A stretch of DNA of 31,367 nt, from NCBI GenBank assembly GCA_016937995.1, contig JAFGVM010000023.1, positions 1-31,367 on the forward strand. Reading direction: 5' to 3'. The DNA comes from Candidatus Delongbacteria bacterium. GTDB taxonomy: Bacteria; UBA4055. The position numbers and the translations under genes were made by a program. The notes below the pieces were generated by a model. It was not told where the DNA came from and did not search any database. It saw nothing but the letters and a program-made list of their open reading frames with translations. Below, piece by piece: positions 14,219-29,148 of this stretch; position 1 is the first letter of the stretch, and each line of letters starts with the position of its first letter.

Positions 14219-15466
14219 ATGACTAAGAAAACAAAAAGTGGTGACTTTTGCAGTTTCTGTGGAAGACCATCTGAGGAGATCGGAATGCTGATCTCAGGTA
14301 TGGATGCTATGATCTGTGATGAATGTGTAGATTATGCTCAAAGTTATCTGGATGAAATACAGGTCAAGGAACAGAAAGACAGCATCCCTGAAAAATTCCC
14401 TACTCCGAAAGAGATCAAAAATGAGCTAGATAAGTACGTTTTTGGACAAAATGATGTTAAAGTGGCTGTTTCTGTTGCCGTTTACAATCACTATAAAAGA
14501 CTTCATTCAAATTTAAAAAACAAAGATGAAAATGTTGAAATAGAAAAATCAAACATACTCTTCGTAGGTGCCACCGGAACAGGTAAAACTCTTATTGCCA
14601 GAACACTTGCCAGAGTTTTACATGTACCTTTCACCATTGCTGACGCTACAGTTCTGACTGAAGCGGGTTATGTGGGTGAAGATGTGGAGAATATCATTGT
14701 CCGTCTTTTACAGTCTGCTGATTACGATCCTAAATTAACTGAAACCGGTATTATATACATTGACGAGATCGATAAGATCGCGCGTAAGAACTCTAATCCT
14801 TCAATTACAAGAGATGTTTCAGGAGAAGGAGTACAGCAGTCATTGCTAAAGATACTTGAAGGAACAAAAGCTCAGGTTCCACCTAAGGGAGGAAGAAAAC
14901 ATCCTGAACAACCTTTAGTTGAAATTGATACCACTAATATACTTTTCATTTGTGGTGGTGCTTTTGATGGTATTGAAGATATCATCAGGCACCGGATCGG
15001 AGAAAAAAGCATTGGATTCGGATCTGACAAAGTTAATATCAAGGGAATGAACTATGATGAGATCCTTTCTAAAATAGCTTACGAAGATCTGTTCAAATTC
15101 GGTTTGATCCCTGAAATAATAGGAAGATTGCCGGTAGTTAAATCAATGCACCATCTTGATAAGAATGCTTTAGAACATATTTTGACAGAGCCAAAGAATT
15201 CAATTGTGAAGCAATATCAGAAATTATTTGAATATGAAGGTTGTAAGCTTGAATTTACCAAAGATGCAATTTCAGAGATCGCAAATCTGGCCATAGTAAG
15301 AAAGACCGGTGCAAGATCTTTAAAAAGTATTATCGAAGATACAATGAATGAGATCATGTTCGAATTACCGGATCATCCTGATACTAAGAAAGTAACGATA
15401 GACAAAGATATCGTCCTTGGTAATAAAAAAATTAAATTCGTAAAACCTAAGAAGAAGAGAAAATAA
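14219..15466 (+). CDS. clpX: ClpX ATP-dependent unfoldase
   Basis: A 415-residue ClpX. The N-terminal zinc-binding domain has Cys11, Cys14, Cys33 and Cys36 (Cx2C-x18-Cx2C). The AAA+ core has Walker A GATGTGKT (117-124), Walker B IIYIDEID (178-185), the pore loop GYVG (150-153) and the ClpP-docking IGF tripeptide (265-267). It recognises and unfolds substrates and feeds them to ClpP. The presence of the IGF loop shows it is meant to dock on a ClpP. The ribosome binding site (ACGGA) is weak and lies in the short gap after clpP, so coupled translation is likely. Confidence 0.95.
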
Positions 15467-15495
15467 TAACCTTAAAATAAGTCATGACTTAATAG

Positions 15496-15596
15496 AAACA
15501 AGTAGTTCAAGGAGGAAGAGGAATTGATAGATGGGAGCTTGCATGAAGCAAGTCACTTGAACAGAAATTCACATTCGACGAAGAAATACGAAGTTT
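15496..15596 (+). repeat. structured repeat element, copy A
   Basis: This ~100-base stretch between clpX and the thiamine pyrophosphokinase gene matches another at 28955-29052. Shared parts in order: AAAC, TTCAAGGAGGA, GAATT, three hairpins, and AAGTTT. Hairpin 1 is GCTTGC (15537-15542) with GCAAGT (15548-15553). Hairpin 2 is TGAA/TTCA around CAGAAA (15558-15571). Hairpin 3 is TTCG (15574-15577) with CGAA (15589-15592). AAAC (15496-15499) and GTTT (15593-15596) can close the whole. It may be a structured RNA, a leader or a repeat family. Confidence 0.55.
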
Positions 15597-15619
15597 ATTG
15601 GAAGGCATATGGAAAATAA
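15524..15619 (+). CDS. possible 31-residue leader peptide upstream of thiamine pyrophosphokinase
   Basis: A TTG-initiated ORF of 31 codons with an ideal ribosome binding site (AAGGAGG at 15509-15515, 8 bases before the TTG). It ends with KYEVYWKAYGK and its stop overlaps the start of the downstream gene by 11 bases. The product is basic and polar with aromatic residues near the end and matches nothing I recognise. It lies inside structured element A; the related element at 28955 has TTT in place of TTG and an early stop, so the ORF is not conserved between the copies. It could be a coupling leader ORF or chance. Confidence 0.3.
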   Translation: MIDGSLHEASHLNRNSHSTKKYEVYWKAYGK

Positions 15620-16370
15620 AACCGCTATTCTCGTTTTAAATGGAAAGGAATTCGACGCTAATTCCTTTAAGAAGATCTACAATGATCAGTTCATTATTGC
15701 TGTTGATGGTGGGATCAATCACATTTATAAATATTTTCCGGACATAACAGTTGATCTACATATAGGTGATATGGATTCATGCGAACAGTCGGCACTGGAC
15801 AATCTTTCTATTGCTAAAACGATGAAATTCCCAGTGGAAAAGGATTACTCTGACTATGATCTTGCTTTGGAGGAAACCCATGTTCTCGGATATAATAATG
15901 CTATTGTATTCGGTGCTTTTGGGGGTAGAAAAGATCATTTCATGTCTAATTTTGAGACAAGTGTTTATTTTGCCGGAAAGAGTTTAAGCAGGCAAACAAA
16001 AAACCTATTCTCTATTCTGCATAAAAACAAATCGTCCATACATGAGGAGATCTCTGAGGAGATCGAAGAAACTATCCCATGCTGTTTCTCTCCGGTCATT
16101 TTAATCGGTGAAAAAGAAAATATGTACTTTTTAAATTCTTCAACAAAGTTCAAATTTTCACCAAAGACCAGTATTTCTATTTTTGCCGGAAGTGATAAGG
16201 TAAAACATCTTACTATCAAAGGTTTTAAATATAGATTAATTGACACCGAGCTTTCACGAGACAACCCTCTCGGTCTAAGTAATTGCGCTGTTGATGACAC
16301 TCAATCCATAGAATTCACAAAAGGTGTTATCGTAGTTATTGAGAATAAAACAGTGGTCAGTGATCATTGA
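15609..16370 (+). CDS. thiN: thiamine pyrophosphokinase
   Basis: A 253-residue thiamine diphosphokinase, which transfers pyrophosphate from ATP to thiamine. Motifs in order: AVDGG, IGDMDS, EKDYSDYDLAL and GGRKDHFMSN (N-terminal catalytic domain), then a C-terminal thiamine-binding beta region ending in GLSN. Usual length is about 210-220 residues; the excess lies around residues 125-175, a Lys/Ser/Glu-rich insert between the two domains. The ATG follows GGAAGG. The last codons and the stop fall in a degenerate heptamer repeat (16351-16374), so the C-terminal VVSDH may be repeat-derived. It lies downstream of clpX behind element A and upstream of udp. Confidence 0.88.
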   Translation: MENKTAILVLNGKEFDANSFKKIYNDQFIIAVDGGINHIYKYFPDITVDLHIGDMDSCEQSALDNLSIAKTMKFPVEKDYSDYDLALEETHVLGYNNAIVFGAFGGRKDHFMSNFETSVYFAGKSLSRQTKNLFSILHKNKSSIHEEISEEIEETIPCCFSPVILIGEKENMYFLNSSTKFKFSPKTSISIFAGSDKVKHLTIKGFKYRLIDTELSRDNPLGLSNCAVDDTQSIEFTKGVIVVIENKTVVSDH

Positions 16371-18550: not shown

Positions 18551-19960
18551 ATGAAAAATACATATTTTGACCTTGTTGAACAATCATTCTACTTTCCCCA
18601 GGAGGGTTTTGACCTTAACGAAGGTTATCTGACCTTTCACGGTGTTTCATTAAAATATTTGATCGATAAATACGGTACTCCATTGAGGCTATTTTATCTG
18701 CCAAAAATAGGAGATCAGATAAAAAAATCACGAAATTTATTTAACAGAGCCATTAAATCCATCGGCTATAAAGGCAAATATCATTTCTGCTACTGTACTA
18801 AATGCTGTCATTATCACCACGTAATAAGTGCAGCTTTGAAACATAACGTAAATCTTGAAACATCATCATCATTCGACATTGACCTTATACTGAGACTGTT
18901 AAAAAAGGGACAACTGACCAAGGACCGTATAATTGTTCATAACGGTTATAAGACTGATGACTATATAAAAAAGATATTGAGTCTTCAGGACATGGGATTC
19001 AATAATACAATAATTGTCCTTGACAGTATAACAGAACTGAAAAGACTTGATGATCTATCAGGTGATAAAAAGATCACTATAGGTCTGAGAATGGCCATAG
19101 ATGAAGAGCCTCAATCTGCTTATTATACATCAAGACTCGGAATCAATCATACTGAATTACTGGATTTCTACCGTGATGAAATTAAAGATAATAAAAAATT
19201 CATATTTAAAATGCTTCACTTTTTTGTTGATTCAGGTATAAAGGACAGTCTTTATTACTGGGGCGAGTTTAAAAAAGCTCTTAAACTCTACGTTGAGTTA
19301 AAAAAAGATGCCCCGAACCTGGATTCTCTGAATCTTGGTGGTGGTTTTCCTATAAGAAGCGGCATGGGATTCGAGTACGATTATGAATATATGATCAAGG
19401 AGATCGTAACTGGAATTAAGGATATCTGTTCAAATGAAGGTGTTGAAGAACCGGATATTTATACTGAATTCGGTAAATTTACTGTAGGTGAAAGTGGAGC
19501 TATTATCTTTAAAGTCATTGAGCAGAAACAACAAAATGATACTGAGAGATGGTATATCGTTGACAACAGTGTTATGAACACAATTCCGGATGCATGGTCA
19601 ATCCATGAAAAGTTTATTCTGCTGCCGATAAATAAATGGGATAATGATTATACAAGGGTCAATATCGGTGGTTTAAGCTGTGATCACTCTGACTATTATA
19701 ATTCTGAGGATCTGAATCAGCAAATATTGCTTCCTGAGTACGACAATGATGAAAAAGAACCACTTTATTTAGGTTTTTTTCATACTGGAGCTTATCAGGA
19801 TTCTATAAGTGGTTACGGAGGTATTAAGCACTGTCTTATACCATCACCTAAACATATCATAATTGATAGAGATGAAAAAGGTGACGTTATCGACCACATA
19901 TACAGAGATGAACAAAGTGTTGGTGATATGTTAAAAATATTAGGATATGAAGAGGAATGA
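18551..19960 (+). CDS. arginine decarboxylase, Bacteroidetes-type PLP (fold III) enzyme
   Basis: A 469-residue PLP-dependent decarboxylase of the alanine-racemase fold. The likely PLP lysine is Lys84 in YCTKCCH; the phosphate-binding and dimer motifs include LNLGGGFPI, TEFGKFTVGESGAI and a C-terminal FFHTGAYQDSISGYGGIKHCL. The layout, from an N-terminal DLVEQSFYFPQEGF to a C-terminal MLKILGY, matches the short arginine decarboxylases of Bacteroidetes as I remember them, about 200 residues shorter than E. coli SpeA. It would turn arginine into agmatine. AGGAG precedes the ATG. The stop overlaps the next start (ATGA), so it is coupled to the agmatinase-family gene. Confidence 0.88.
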   Translation: MKNTYFDLVEQSFYFPQEGFDLNEGYLTFHGVSLKYLIDKYGTPLRLFYLPKIGDQIKKSRNLFNRAIKSIGYKGKYHFCYCTKCCHYHHVISAALKHNVNLETSSSFDIDLILRLLKKGQLTKDRIIVHNGYKTDDYIKKILSLQDMGFNNTIIVLDSITELKRLDDLSGDKKITIGLRMAIDEEPQSAYYTSRLGINHTELLDFYRDEIKDNKKFIFKMLHFFVDSGIKDSLYYWGEFKKALKLYVELKKDAPNLDSLNLGGGFPIRSGMGFEYDYEYMIKEIVTGIKDICSNEGVEEPDIYTEFGKFTVGESGAIIFKVIEQKQQNDTERWYIVDNSVMNTIPDAWSIHEKFILLPINKWDNDYTRVNIGGLSCDHSDYYNSEDLNQQILLPEYDNDEKEPLYLGFFHTGAYQDSISGYGGIKHCLIPSPKHIIIDRDEKGDVIDHIYRDEQSVGDMLKILGYEEE

Positions 19961-20799
19961 AAACTTTTGGCGGAATAGAACAAAGGTACTCAGATTACGA
20001 GAATTCAAAAATATTTTTACGATCCATCCCTTACGATGGAACTTCAACATGGGGAAAAGGAGCGGATAAAGGTTTTCAATCTTTTCTCGAAGCTTCAGAA
20101 AATATGGAACTTTACGATATCGAAACTGATTCTGAAGTTTACAAAAAAGGTATACATATACTTCCCCCTATCAATGAAGATTCTTCTCCAGAAGATTTGT
20201 TCGAAAAAGTATACGAAAGTACTGTACAACTGCTTAAAACCGATAAATTTCTAACTTTTTTCGGTGGAGAACATTCTGTCAGCATTGGAATAATTAAAGC
20301 TTTCTACGAAAAATTCCCGGATATTACTATACTTCATTTTGATGCTCATGCTGACCTTAGACCTGAGTACAACGGATCGAAATATAATCATGCTTGTGCA
20401 GCATACGAGGCTTCTCAAAACACCAATTTAGTACAGATCGGCATACGATCCATGGATATTAATGAGAATAAATATTTAAACAGAGAAAAATGCTTTTTCG
20501 CTCAAGATATCTACAGGGATTCAACCTGGATGGACAAGGCGATCAATTTGCTCACTGACAAAGTTTACATTACTTTCGACCTTGATGCATTTGACCCCTC
20601 TATCATACCCGGGACAGGAACACCGGAACCTGGAGGTCTGGAATGGTATTCCACCTTGGAATTCTTGAAAAAGGTATTTGAAAATAAGAATGTACTTGGT
20701 TTTGATATTGTTGAACTCGCACCTATTGAAGGCTTACCTGCTTCGGAATTTCTGGTATCAAAATTATATTACAAAATGTTAAGCTATAAATTTAAATAA
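19957..20799 (+). CDS. speB: agmatinase-family ureohydrolase
   Basis: A 280-residue arginase/agmatinase-family enzyme. The dimanganese ligands are all present: His106 (GGEHS), Asp129, His131 and Asp133 (FDAHAD), Asp208 and Asp210 (TFDLDAFDP). GTGTPEPGG follows, as in agmatinases. It would release urea from agmatine to give putrescine; other ureohydrolase substrates such as aminopropylagmatine cannot be excluded. The ATG overlaps the decarboxylase stop by four bases, which supports agmatine as the substrate. The deoxyhypusine-synthase-like gene begins 13 bases downstream. Confidence 0.9.
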   Translation: MKTFGGIEQRYSDYENSKIFLRSIPYDGTSTWGKGADKGFQSFLEASENMELYDIETDSEVYKKGIHILPPINEDSSPEDLFEKVYESTVQLLKTDKFLTFFGGEHSVSIGIIKAFYEKFPDITILHFDAHADLRPEYNGSKYNHACAAYEASQNTNLVQIGIRSMDINENKYLNREKCFFAQDIYRDSTWMDKAINLLTDKVYITFDLDAFDPSIIPGTGTPEPGGLEWYSTLEFLKKVFENKNVLGFDIVELAPIEGLPASEFLVSKLYYKMLSYKFK

Positions 20800-20812
20800 A
20801 CAAGAGAATGCT

Positions 20813-21787
20813 ATGAAAAATAAAGGACCAGTTTCTAATTTTATTTTAGAACATTTCAAACATTTTAATGCAGCTGCTCTGATAGATGCTGCCCAAGGAT
20901 ACGAAAAACAATTGGAAGACGGCAAGAAAATGATGGTCACTTTAGCTGGTGCTATGAGTACAGCTGAACTTGGAAAGTCTTTGGCAGAAATGATAAGACA
21001 GGACAAGATCGCTATTATTTCATGTACCGGAGCAAATCTTGAAGAGGATGTTTTTAATCTTGTGGCACACGATTATTACAAACGTGTGCCGCATTACAGA
21101 GATCTTTCCCCAATCGATGAAAAAGAATTGCTGGATCACCATTTCAATAGAGTTACTGATACCTGTATACCTGAAGAAGAGGCAATGAGAAGAATAGAAA
21201 AACATTTGGTGGATCAGTGGTCTAAAGCATACAAAGAGGGAAAAAGATATTTCCCGCATCAGTTCTTTTATAATATTCTGTTAAGCGGACAACTTGAGAA
21301 AGATTACCAGATCGATCCTAAAGATTCATGGTTACTTGCAGCAGCTCAGAAAAATTTGCCGATAATTGTACCCGGATGGGAAGATTCCACATGTGGAAAC
21401 TTTTTTGCTGCACATTGTATAGAAGGCTTATTCGAACCTTCCGTAACTAGATCTGGAATTGAATACATGATGTTTTTAGCAAAATGGTATCAGGAAAATG
21501 TTGGAAAAGGTATCGGTTTCTTTCAGATTGGTGGTGGTATTGCAGGTGATTTCCCGATCTGTGTAGTACCTATGCTTCACCAGGACCTTCAACTTGATCA
21601 AATACCTGTCTGGTCATATTTTTGCCAGATAAGTGACTCCACAACAAGCTATGGTTCATACTCTGGAGCTGTACCTAATGAAAAGATCACCTGGGGAAAA
21701 CTGGAACCTGAAACTCCGAAATTTATAATTGAGTCGGATGCTACTATCGTAGCTCCATTAATATTTGCTTATTTATTAGGATGGTAA
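20813..21787 (+). CDS. deoxyhypusine-synthase-like aminoalkyl transferase
   Basis: A 324-residue member of the deoxyhypusine synthase family. The catalytic lysine aligns to Lys296 in ITWGK (human WGK), and the NAD region includes LAGAMSTAELG and SCTGANLEEDV. Bacteria lack eIF5A, so the eukaryotic reaction is unlikely; plausible roles are NAD-dependent aminobutyl transfer between polyamines, for example making homospermidine from putrescine. Its place directly after arginine decarboxylase and agmatinase, which would supply putrescine, fits that idea (inference). The gap to the next gene is zero: TAA is followed at once by ATG. Confidence 0.87.
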   Translation: MKNKGPVSNFILEHFKHFNAAALIDAAQGYEKQLEDGKKMMVTLAGAMSTAELGKSLAEMIRQDKIAIISCTGANLEEDVFNLVAHDYYKRVPHYRDLSPIDEKELLDHHFNRVTDTCIPEEEAMRRIEKHLVDQWSKAYKEGKRYFPHQFFYNILLSGQLEKDYQIDPKDSWLLAAAQKNLPIIVPGWEDSTCGNFFAAHCIEGLFEPSVTRSGIEYMMFLAKWYQENVGKGIGFFQIGGGIAGDFPICVVPMLHQDLQLDQIPVWSYFCQISDSTTSYGSYSGAVPNEKITWGKLEPETPKFIIESDATIVAPLIFAYLLGW

Positions 21788-22555
21788 ATGAAAAAATTTA
21801 AGTACGCTGTCGTAAGAAAACCTTCACAAAGTATGACCAATGGTCTAACTTCTGCTGATCTTGGCAAACCTGTATATGAAAAAGCTCTGGAACAACATTC
21901 GAATTATGTTGAAGCTCTAAAACAATGCGGTCTCTTAGTAAAAATTCTTGACCCCCGAGAAAAATTCCCTGATTCATGTTTCATTGAGGATATTGCAGTA
22001 TGTACTCCTCATTGTGCTATCATTACATATCCCGGAGCACCATCAAGGAACGGGGAAACTGACGGTATCGAGAAGATCCTGCAAAAATATTATACAGAAA
22101 TTGAAGAGATCATTTTTCCCGGAAATTTAGATGGTGGTGATGTAATGATGGTCGATGATCACTATTACATAGGATTATCTGAGAGAACAAATATTCACGG
22201 AGCAAATCAGCTTATTGCAATATTAGAAGATTATGGTATGACTGGATCAGTGGTTGAGATGAATGATATGCTTCATCTTAAGACCGGTATTAATTATATT
22301 GAGAATGGTAATTTCCTGGTGACAGGAGAATTCATTGATAATCCTTCTTTTGAGAAGATAAATCAATTGATCGTTCCTGAAGAAGAGGAATATGCCGCGA
22401 ATTCTCTCTGGATCAATGACACTGTTATCGTTCCTGAGGGCTATCCTAAAACAAAAAAAATGATCGAAGATCTCGGATACAGTATTATTGAAGTGGACAC
22501 TTCTGAATTCAGAAAACTGGATGGCGGATTGAGTTGTCTTTCACTTAGGTTTTAA
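21788..22555 (+). CDS. DDAH-like guanidine-modifying hydrolase
   Basis: A 255-residue protein of the dimethylarginine dimethylaminohydrolase/amidinotransferase superfamily. Motifs: DSCFIEDIAV (Glu67-Asp68), GNLDGGDVM, MLHLKTGINYI (His163) and GGLSCLSLRF with nucleophile Cys250. Pseudomonas DDAH has His162 and Cys249, nearly the same spacing. It would hydrolyse a guanidino group, classically dimethylarginine to citrulline. In this polyamine operon, a guanidino polyamine or arginine is also possible. It starts immediately after the deoxyhypusine-synthase-like stop, so it is coupled with it. No terminator is visible after it. Confidence 0.85.
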   Translation: MKKFKYAVVRKPSQSMTNGLTSADLGKPVYEKALEQHSNYVEALKQCGLLVKILDPREKFPDSCFIEDIAVCTPHCAIITYPGAPSRNGETDGIEKILQKYYTEIEEIIFPGNLDGGDVMMVDDHYYIGLSERTNIHGANQLIAILEDYGMTGSVVEMNDMLHLKTGINYIENGNFLVTGEFIDNPSFEKINQLIVPEEEEYAANSLWINDTVIVPEGYPKTKKMIEDLGYSIIEVDTSEFRKLDGGLSCLSLRF

Positions 22556-28023: not shown

Positions 28024-28851
28024 CTAATACATCATTGCAAATACAGCTATTGCAATACAATACACTGCAAAAAAGTACATATTTGACTTTTTGATCATCC
28101 AAACTAATAATTTCAGACTGAAATATCCTGTGATCAAAGCCGTTACAAAACCAACCCCAAGAACAAACGGCTCAACACTGAATTCAACCTCCATGACATC
28201 TTTCAACCCAAGTAGAAACGCACCACCAATTGCAGGCAATGATAGTAAAAAGGAATATGAAGCTGCTGTTTCTTTGTCTATTGAAAGAAATTTCGCTGTT
28301 GATATAGTAGATCCTGACCTGGAAATACCCGGAATAATAGCTATCCCCTGAACAATACCAATTATGATAGAATCAAGAACTGATATCTGATCTATTTTCT
28401 TAAAAGCTCTTCTTTTAATTTCAAAGAAAATAAGCAATGTTGCAGTTACCAATAACGCAATTCCGACATAAAAAAGATTATCTGCCAACTTTTCTACAGC
28501 ATCTTTGAATGTAAGTCCAATAATAGCAGTCGGAATACTGCCGATGATGATCAGAACAAAAAATCTTGAATCTTTACTCTCAAAGAAAGATTTTTTAACA
28601 CCTTCACCTTTCAACAGATTTTTTATACCGTAAAAACCGCCCTTTATAATATCCTTGATCGTATTCCTGTAGAATATAACAACAGCTATCAGAGTAGCTA
28701 AATGAAGCAAAATGTCAAAAAACAAATTCGATTCAGTCTCTAATCCTGTTACTTTATGCAAAATTGCAAGATGCCCAGAAGAGGAAACAGGTAAAAATTC
28801 TGTTAAACCCTGAATAAATCCTAACAATGCTGATTTTAAAACTTCATCCAT
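28024..28851 (-). CDS. uppP: undecaprenyl-diphosphatase UppP (BacA)
   Basis: A 275-residue membrane enzyme with about eight hydrophobic segments. The family motifs are QGLTEFLPVSSSGH (Gln14, Glu18, His27) and PGISRSGSTIS with Arg178. It removes phosphate from undecaprenyl diphosphate so the carrier lipid can be reused for peptidoglycan and other surface polymers; loss or overexpression affects bacitracin response. Full length for the family. The ribosome binding site is weak (AGG before the ATG). Confidence 0.96.
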   Translation of the reverse strand: MDEVLKSALLGFIQGLTEFLPVSSSGHLAILHKVTGLETESNLFFDILLHLATLIAVVIFYRNTIKDIIKGGFYGIKNLLKGEGVKKSFFESKDSRFFVLIIIGSIPTAIIGLTFKDAVEKLADNLFYVGIALLVTATLLIFFEIKRRAFKKIDQISVLDSIIIGIVQGIAIIPGISRSGSTISTAKFLSIDKETAASYSFLLSLPAIGGAFLLGLKDVMEVEFSVEPFVLGVGFVTALITGYFSLKLLVWMIKKSNMYFFAVYCIAIAVFAMMY

Positions 28852-28954
28852 ATTTATTTACCTAATCTTTAAATTTTAATTTTAGTTTGTAATTCTATTT
28901 ATCTTTTTTAGGTTTAAAGCGGGATAAACCAAATTGTTATGTTTAAGAAATTAA

Positions 28955-29052
28955 AAACAAAGAAATTCAAGGAGGAGTCAGAATTTTTCAGTGAGTTTAC
29001 AGAAGTAAATGAATGCAGAAAATTCAGACTTTGAAGCAGAAATTCAAAGTTT
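28955..29052 (+). repeat. structured repeat element, copy B
   Basis: Related to copy A at 15496. TTCAAGGAGGA lies at 28966-28976. Hairpin 1 is GTTTAC (28995-29000) with GTAAAT (29005-29010); hairpin 2 is TGAAT/ATTCA around GCAGAAA (29010-29026); hairpin 3 is ACTTTGAA/TTCAAAGT around GCAGAAA (29028-29050). TTAAAAAC (28951-28958) pairs with GTTTTTAA (29049-29056), and GTTTAAG (28941-28947) with CTTAAAC (29059-29065), giving a long closing stem. It has the opposite strand sense to the neighbouring genes and ends 9 bases from the tRNA 3' end. Confidence 0.6.
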
Positions 29053-29074
29053 TTAAATCTTAAACCAATAATTG

Positions 29075-29148
29075 TGCATCTGACCGGGTTCGAACCGACA
29101 ACCTCAGGATCCGGAGTCCTGTGTTCTATCCAGTTGAACTACAGATGC
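29075..29148 (-). tRNA. tRNA-Arg (anticodon CCG)
   Basis: Reading the minus strand: acceptor stem GCATCTG/CAGATGC, anticodon stem CAGGA/TCCTG with loop CTCCGGA (anticodon CCG, for codon CGG), and T loop TTCGAAC closed by GTCGG/CCGGT with two wobble pairs. The discriminator is A. CCA is not encoded (CAA follows), so it must be added after transcription. It begins 10 bases after the tkt stop and could be co-transcribed with tkt. Confidence 0.95.

Follow-up and report, generated by a model that had tools for sequence, protein, structure and literature searches.

Two hairpin elements of a Candidatus Delongbacteria genome as probable copies of an ERIC-like interspersed palindrome

Introduction

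ERIC has for decades been treated as an enterobacterial repeat whose mobility is unexplained, and REP units, dispersed palindromes of 20-40 bp, are served by a Y1 transposase. The hosts from which ERIC has been described are Enterobacteriaceae and Vibrionaceae (PMC10969869, PMC2267715), and in Yersinia the repeat has an orientation-dependent effect on mRNA decay via an RNase E site (PMC2229807, PMC10969869). YPAL, also of Yersinia, carries 3-26 bp direct repeats, placed on or beside dyad-symmetry targets (PMC2229807), and bcr1 of the Bacillus cereus group is a dispersed structured repeat of ~150 bp, present in tens to 130 copies and located in UTRs (PMC6542083, PMC3446304). Reports of ERIC in Delongbacteria, Deferribacterota or Bacillota were not found in open-access text, and the core sequence of the elements described here, looked for in the text of the literature, returned unrelated primer matches only.

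Here we analysed a stretch of 31,367 nucleotides from a Candidatus Delongbacteria bacterium, referred to as the window. A sequence-only reading of it had pointed to two related structured elements of ~100 nt, copies A and B, and had proposed a dispersed family under selection as a folded RNA or DNA hairpin. We conclude that A and B are probably copies of a non-autonomous, ERIC-like interspersed palindrome, a judgement that covers the whole explanation including its mechanism.

Results

Two related palindromes in the window

Copy A, including its outer stem, spans 15483..15611 (+ strand) and fully matches the covariance models R1 and R2 (positions 1-127/127); copy B, also delimited by a covariance-model match, spans 28942..29066 (+). 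Copy A sits between clpX (14219..15466, +; from the ORF list) and a thiamin pyrophosphokinase-like (thiN-like) gene (15609..16370, +) that starts just past it. Copy B lies between a uppP-like gene (28024..28851, -) and tRNA-Arg(CCG) (29074..29148, -), antisense to both, its end being 8 bp from the 3' end of the tRNA. The thiN-like and uppP-like genes rest on ORFs and orthologues, and all three protein genes were named by sequence recognition. Elsewhere in the window (18551-22555) a run of ORFs resembles putative genes for arginine decarboxylase, agmatinase, a deoxyhypusine-synthase-like and a dimethylargininase-like protein.

The motifs common to A and B occur in the order and places first reported, and with either of two scoring schemes none of 2000 dinucleotide shuffles reached the local alignment score of the two copies. 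The motifs hold as an ordered set; TTCAAGGAGGA by itself is ordinary, its 87 genome matches at <=1 mismatch equalling the reversed-pattern control, and the motif given as CAGAAAxTTCA is present but reads CAGAAATTCA in copy A, with no x. The hairpin GCTTGC/GCAAGT versus GTTTAC/GTAAAT with its two compensated pairs was described correctly and is part of the consensus: it forms the apical hairpin GCTTGC-ATGAA-GCAAGT in copy A (15537..15553, +), the counterpart of GCTTAC-ATAA-GTAAGT in ERIC, and GTTTAC-AGAA-GTAAAT in copy B (28995..29010, +). The second proposed hairpin, TTCG/CGAA versus TTTG/CAAA, corresponds to no consensus helix; in the family structure the 3' segment GAAATAC / GAAATTC pairs with the 5'-side GTAGTTC / GAAATTC. 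In copy A the consensus structure pairs the conserved 5' strand GAAACAAGTAGTTCAAGGAG (15495..15514, +) with the conserved 3' strand GACGAAGAAATACGAAGTTT (15577..15596, +). Thus two related structured elements are indeed present, but ~100 nt was too short, as the outer stem extends them to ~125 nt.

Structure and covariation

The element is an imperfect palindrome of ~125 nt forming a single long hairpin, modelled over 127 positions without branch points. Read from base to tip, it starts with an outer stem that is variable and continues through RAAC/GTTY, a GA/GAA loop, the core helix GTA-G-TTC / GAA-A-TAC and an AA/GMA loop; next come two tandem G-A steps with a variable stem between them, and finally the apical stem. 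In an alignment of 133 copies (A3) 90.7% of the cells are paired, compared with 69.1% after shuffling, two-sided changes occur at all 31 of the 31 modelled base pairs, and the covariation score is 0.547 versus 0.173 for shuffled and <=0.128 for slid alignments. A second, largely independent alignment of 71 further matches (A4), the majority of them absent from model training, scored 0.606 versus 0.186 when shuffled. Both alignments were fitted to a model, which favours structure; the slid and shuffled controls nonetheless remain far off. Together with dozens of copies per genome found by the covariance models, this massive and compensated covariation supports the proposal of a dispersed family selected as a folded RNA or DNA hairpin; neither outcome named beforehand as contrary to the proposal, a lack of additional copies or stems without compensation, was observed.

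G-U pairs outnumber A-C mismatches (203 versus 79), indicating that the + strand as defined is the strand that folds; the Clostridia MAG alone lacks this excess (14 G-U, 26 A-C). The excess is compatible with either RNA or single-stranded DNA as the folded form and does not tell between them. A reading of the - strand as an intrinsic terminator was dropped because no T run follows the element in the inspected copies.

Copy number and distribution

A blastn search with copy A yielded further copies in its own genome and in four relatives. A covariance model for genome search, built from 18 copies, counted at least 33 in this genome, 96 in the related genome G004, 19 in G002, 13 in G007 and 7 in G001, as well as 1-3 in each of a further five or six family genomes; two family members and eight genomes from other families yielded none. 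By a DNA pattern scan we located the same element in Rossellomorea, Anaerobacillus, Cytobacillus, Clostridia MAGs, Denitrovibrio and a Deferribacteraceae MAG, whose whole genomes hold 2 to 42 copies each (42 in the Deferribacteraceae MAG, 36 in a Clostridia MAG). The hosts hence represent at least three phyla, Delongbacteria, Deferribacterota and Bacillota, outside the Gammaproteobacteria. Pattern matches in Pedobacter and in one viral contig are unlike the element and were taken as chance, and one Anaerobacillus copy found no match among plasmids and phages by blastn.

In Anaerobacillus and Cytobacillus the element resides in rRNA operons, directly before the 23S gene and in sense. Between paralogous operons of one Bacillaceae genome the inner stems differ while the flanks are identical (L162 5400-7760, L348-L356), and a search of these paralogous operons for an empty site found none, every readable spacer carrying the element. 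A Clostridia MAG (L164, L168, L298-L302) contains tandem arrays of 2-4 copies ~150 bp apart, and one copy (L205:1144-1307) has an additional insert of ~37 nt in which a portion of the copy's stem and apical sequence recurs. Set against these elements by description, bcr1 differs in being TTTAT-linked and reported as restricted to its group.

Relation to ERIC

The elements share with ERIC (IRU, RU-1; 127 bp) the length, the single long imperfect hairpin and the central GGAGCTTAC..GTAAGTGAC hairpin, and like ERIC they are intergenic in nearly every case, occur in tens of copies and need no ORF. The ERIC-type central conserved hairpin AGGAGCTTACATAAGTAAGTGACT is present in them, and we take their apical hairpin to resemble published ERIC primers. 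Covariance-model matches are reciprocal. Model R2, trained without Enterobacteria, recognises genuine ERICs from E. coli, Citrobacter, Proteus and Klebsiella and aligns with them in register. Of its seven matches in the set at E<=10, six were full-length and in register and the seventh was a partial match to an ERIC; the ERIC copies of Pantoea and Rahnella were missed. Its sole match in 100 kb of K-12 was the single true ERIC there, between ybhI and ybhJ. This K-12 copy is antisense to two + strand genes. The converse model, R3, was trained exclusively on seven enterobacterial ERICs and gave 21 matches in 1.19 Mb of non-enterobacterial DNA, 20 of which coincide in place and strand with the elements described here. 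Within the window R3 ranked copy B first (E 3.9e-6; it was also the fourth best match of the 1.19 Mb) and copy A second (E 0.012), these E-values being rough.

With the apical hairpin removed, similarity to ERIC reached a mean z of 1.06 for the 3' arm and 0.43 for the 5' arm (controls -0.25 to 0.24). ERIC carries TA at its termini; here 0 copies had TA immediately beyond the stem at both ends, and the outermost pairs are TA/TA in 4 of 144. Because of the modest arm similarity and the lacking terminal TA we call the elements ERIC-like rather than ERIC, from which they also differ in their freely varying outer stems, their core helix and their host phyla.

Several copies in G004 are extended on their 5' side by TGAGRTTGCCTTAAAAAG. 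They lie between direct repeats, 14-25 bp long, which often are the terminator hairpin of the preceding gene. We read these repeats, from their sequence, as target duplications; they are clear in a few young G004 copies only and have been lost from most copies. Such long, variable repeats at terminator hairpins recall YPAL (RU-2), a likeness of description rather than sequence, as YPAL with its 168 bp is longer than the element.

Repeats of this kind, closer to YPAL than to ERIC (PMC2229807), would suit a separate, previously undescribed family of mobile hairpins that converged on ERIC only in the apical hairpin GGAGCNTAC..GTANGTGA, as would the weak likeness of the remaining arms and the missing TA termini. 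We consider such convergence unlikely, though worth serious attention: the reciprocal matches are full-length and strand-specific, the 3' arm exceeds its controls, and length and single-hairpin architecture equal those of ERIC.

Gain, retention and genomic position

No gap separates clpX from thiN in G001, and the shorter one of G002 (L034) holds, where this genome carries copy A, a different and unrelated short perfect hairpin, GACGTACTAATAGTACGTC. Judged from these gaps, copy A is a recent, lineage-specific insertion. Copy B has counterparts in the corresponding gap of both G001 and G002, the stems differing by compensated changes, and, on the same kind of comparison, is an old resident beside tRNA-Arg that is conserved across the genus (three species).

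Nearly all copies are intergenic; ERIC, too, is intergenic, and at gene ends it is in many cases co-transcribed. Counted by genome, 16/30, 9/24, 8/12 and 6/16 copies, and 8/64 in G004, have their 3' end directly against the stop codon of a convergent gene. The element tends to lie at gene 3' ends. Recurrent neighbours across phyla are groEL, clpX, rpsI and atpE; clpX adjoins a copy in Denitrovibrio too, and the gene beside the Bacillus copy is presumably atpE, judging from gene order. Copies at the 3' end of groEL occur in Denitrovibrio and in four genomes of the Delongbacteria family (L171/L288, L176, L144, L145, L213). The recurrence could be due to an insertion preference for the ends of highly expressed genes or to selection.

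GC skew measured locally on the folded strand was negative for 12/12 copies in Denitrovibrio, 16/16 in the Clostridia MAG, 22/24 in the Deferribacteraceae MAG and 23/30 in this genome, and for 30/64 in G004, i.e. without bias. Three of the five genomes tested thus put the folded strand on the C-rich strand (50/52 copies, the effective number being lower since the Clostridia copies are partly tandem). In the Deferribacteraceae MAG the skew stays negative in nearly all windows whose coding mostly shares the strand of the element, so that gene direction does not explain the bias. The leading strand is usually G-rich, and if this holds here the lagging-strand template is the complement of the folded strand. 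On this premise copies are mostly oriented against the replication fork in several genomes, G004 not among them; copies A and B have the minority orientation of their genome.

Compensated stems, conserved internal loops, G-U exceeding A-C, and recurrence beside groEL, clpX, rpsI, atpE and rRNA across phyla are also what a structured functional RNA would display, acting as a regulator or mRNA stabiliser selected at gene ends rather than moving as a repeat. This reading is improbable in view of a copy number that ranges from 0 to over 96 inside one bacterial family, the lack of copy A in sister species and the direct repeats that flank copies; moreover, in G044, G045 and G048 transcription of most copies would run against the fork, head-on, and antisense to their neighbours.

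Still less probable, in our estimate, is that the paired changes stem from template-switch correction of quasi-palindromes, the hairpin itself being under no selection. Core-helix changes in A4 are mostly two-sided, with wobble intermediates almost absent, as such correction would produce, but it would also erase mismatches, and the GA/GAA and AA/GMA loops as well as the G-A mismatch are kept across phyla.

Candidate mobilising genes

No Rfam model, that of HEARO included, matched the elements at gathering or E-value thresholds; what Rfam did report was rRNA, tRNA and T-box leaders, together with terminator hairpins matched by chance. Y1 transposase genes are absent from the copy-rich genomes G004 and G045, which sets the elements apart from the REP/RAYT system despite their likeness as dispersed palindromes, and RVT_1 reverse transcriptases are absent from G045, G044, G007 and G002; the presence of neither gene follows copy number. 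The IscB RRXRR domain gave no match, and its control gave none either. Among 380 neighbouring ORFs no recurrent gene family of the Y1, IscB or reverse-transcriptase kind was found. In this genome (G000) the only reverse-transcriptase match (C40:8710-9348) is separated by ~570 bp from the element at C40:9922.

Descent from an IS200/IS605, REP (Y1 transposase), IscB/HEARO or reverse-transcriptase element, with which the hairpins, the lack of an ORF and the replication-linked orientation bias would agree, is accordingly very improbable. Y1 transposase and RVT_1 were dropped as drivers on account of the carriers that lack these genes, and HEARO/IscB, given the missing Rfam match, is probably not a driver either.

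Discussion

We observed dispersal, high copy number, lineage-specific gain, long retention at some sites, hairpin constraint and strand bias, and the most economical account of them is a non-autonomous hairpin element that is recognised as a folded single strand. An enzyme of the host or of an element would recognise this strand and copy the unit, most easily at replication forks, and insertion would occur near stop codons and terminators, where it is harmless. Copy A would be such an insertion, between clpX and thiN. Within a transcript the element may act as a strong hairpin that changes the stability of the mRNA 3' end, by analogy with ERIC in Yersinia. Tentatively, and with more doubt than confidence, one may go further and regard ERIC as a single offshoot of an ancient class of mobile hairpins that spans several phyla, moves via a folded single strand at the fork, is oriented by replication and not by genes, and uses a host enzyme shared by all these phyla.

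No Rfam family covers the elements, which therefore escape annotation pipelines based on Rfam. The high-copy relatives in Delongbacteria, Deferribacterota and Bacillota provide new material for finding the common machinery. The mover must exist in all carrier genomes and need be neither a Y1 transposase nor a reverse transcriptase, and the replication-linked orientation offers a concrete, testable clue to it.
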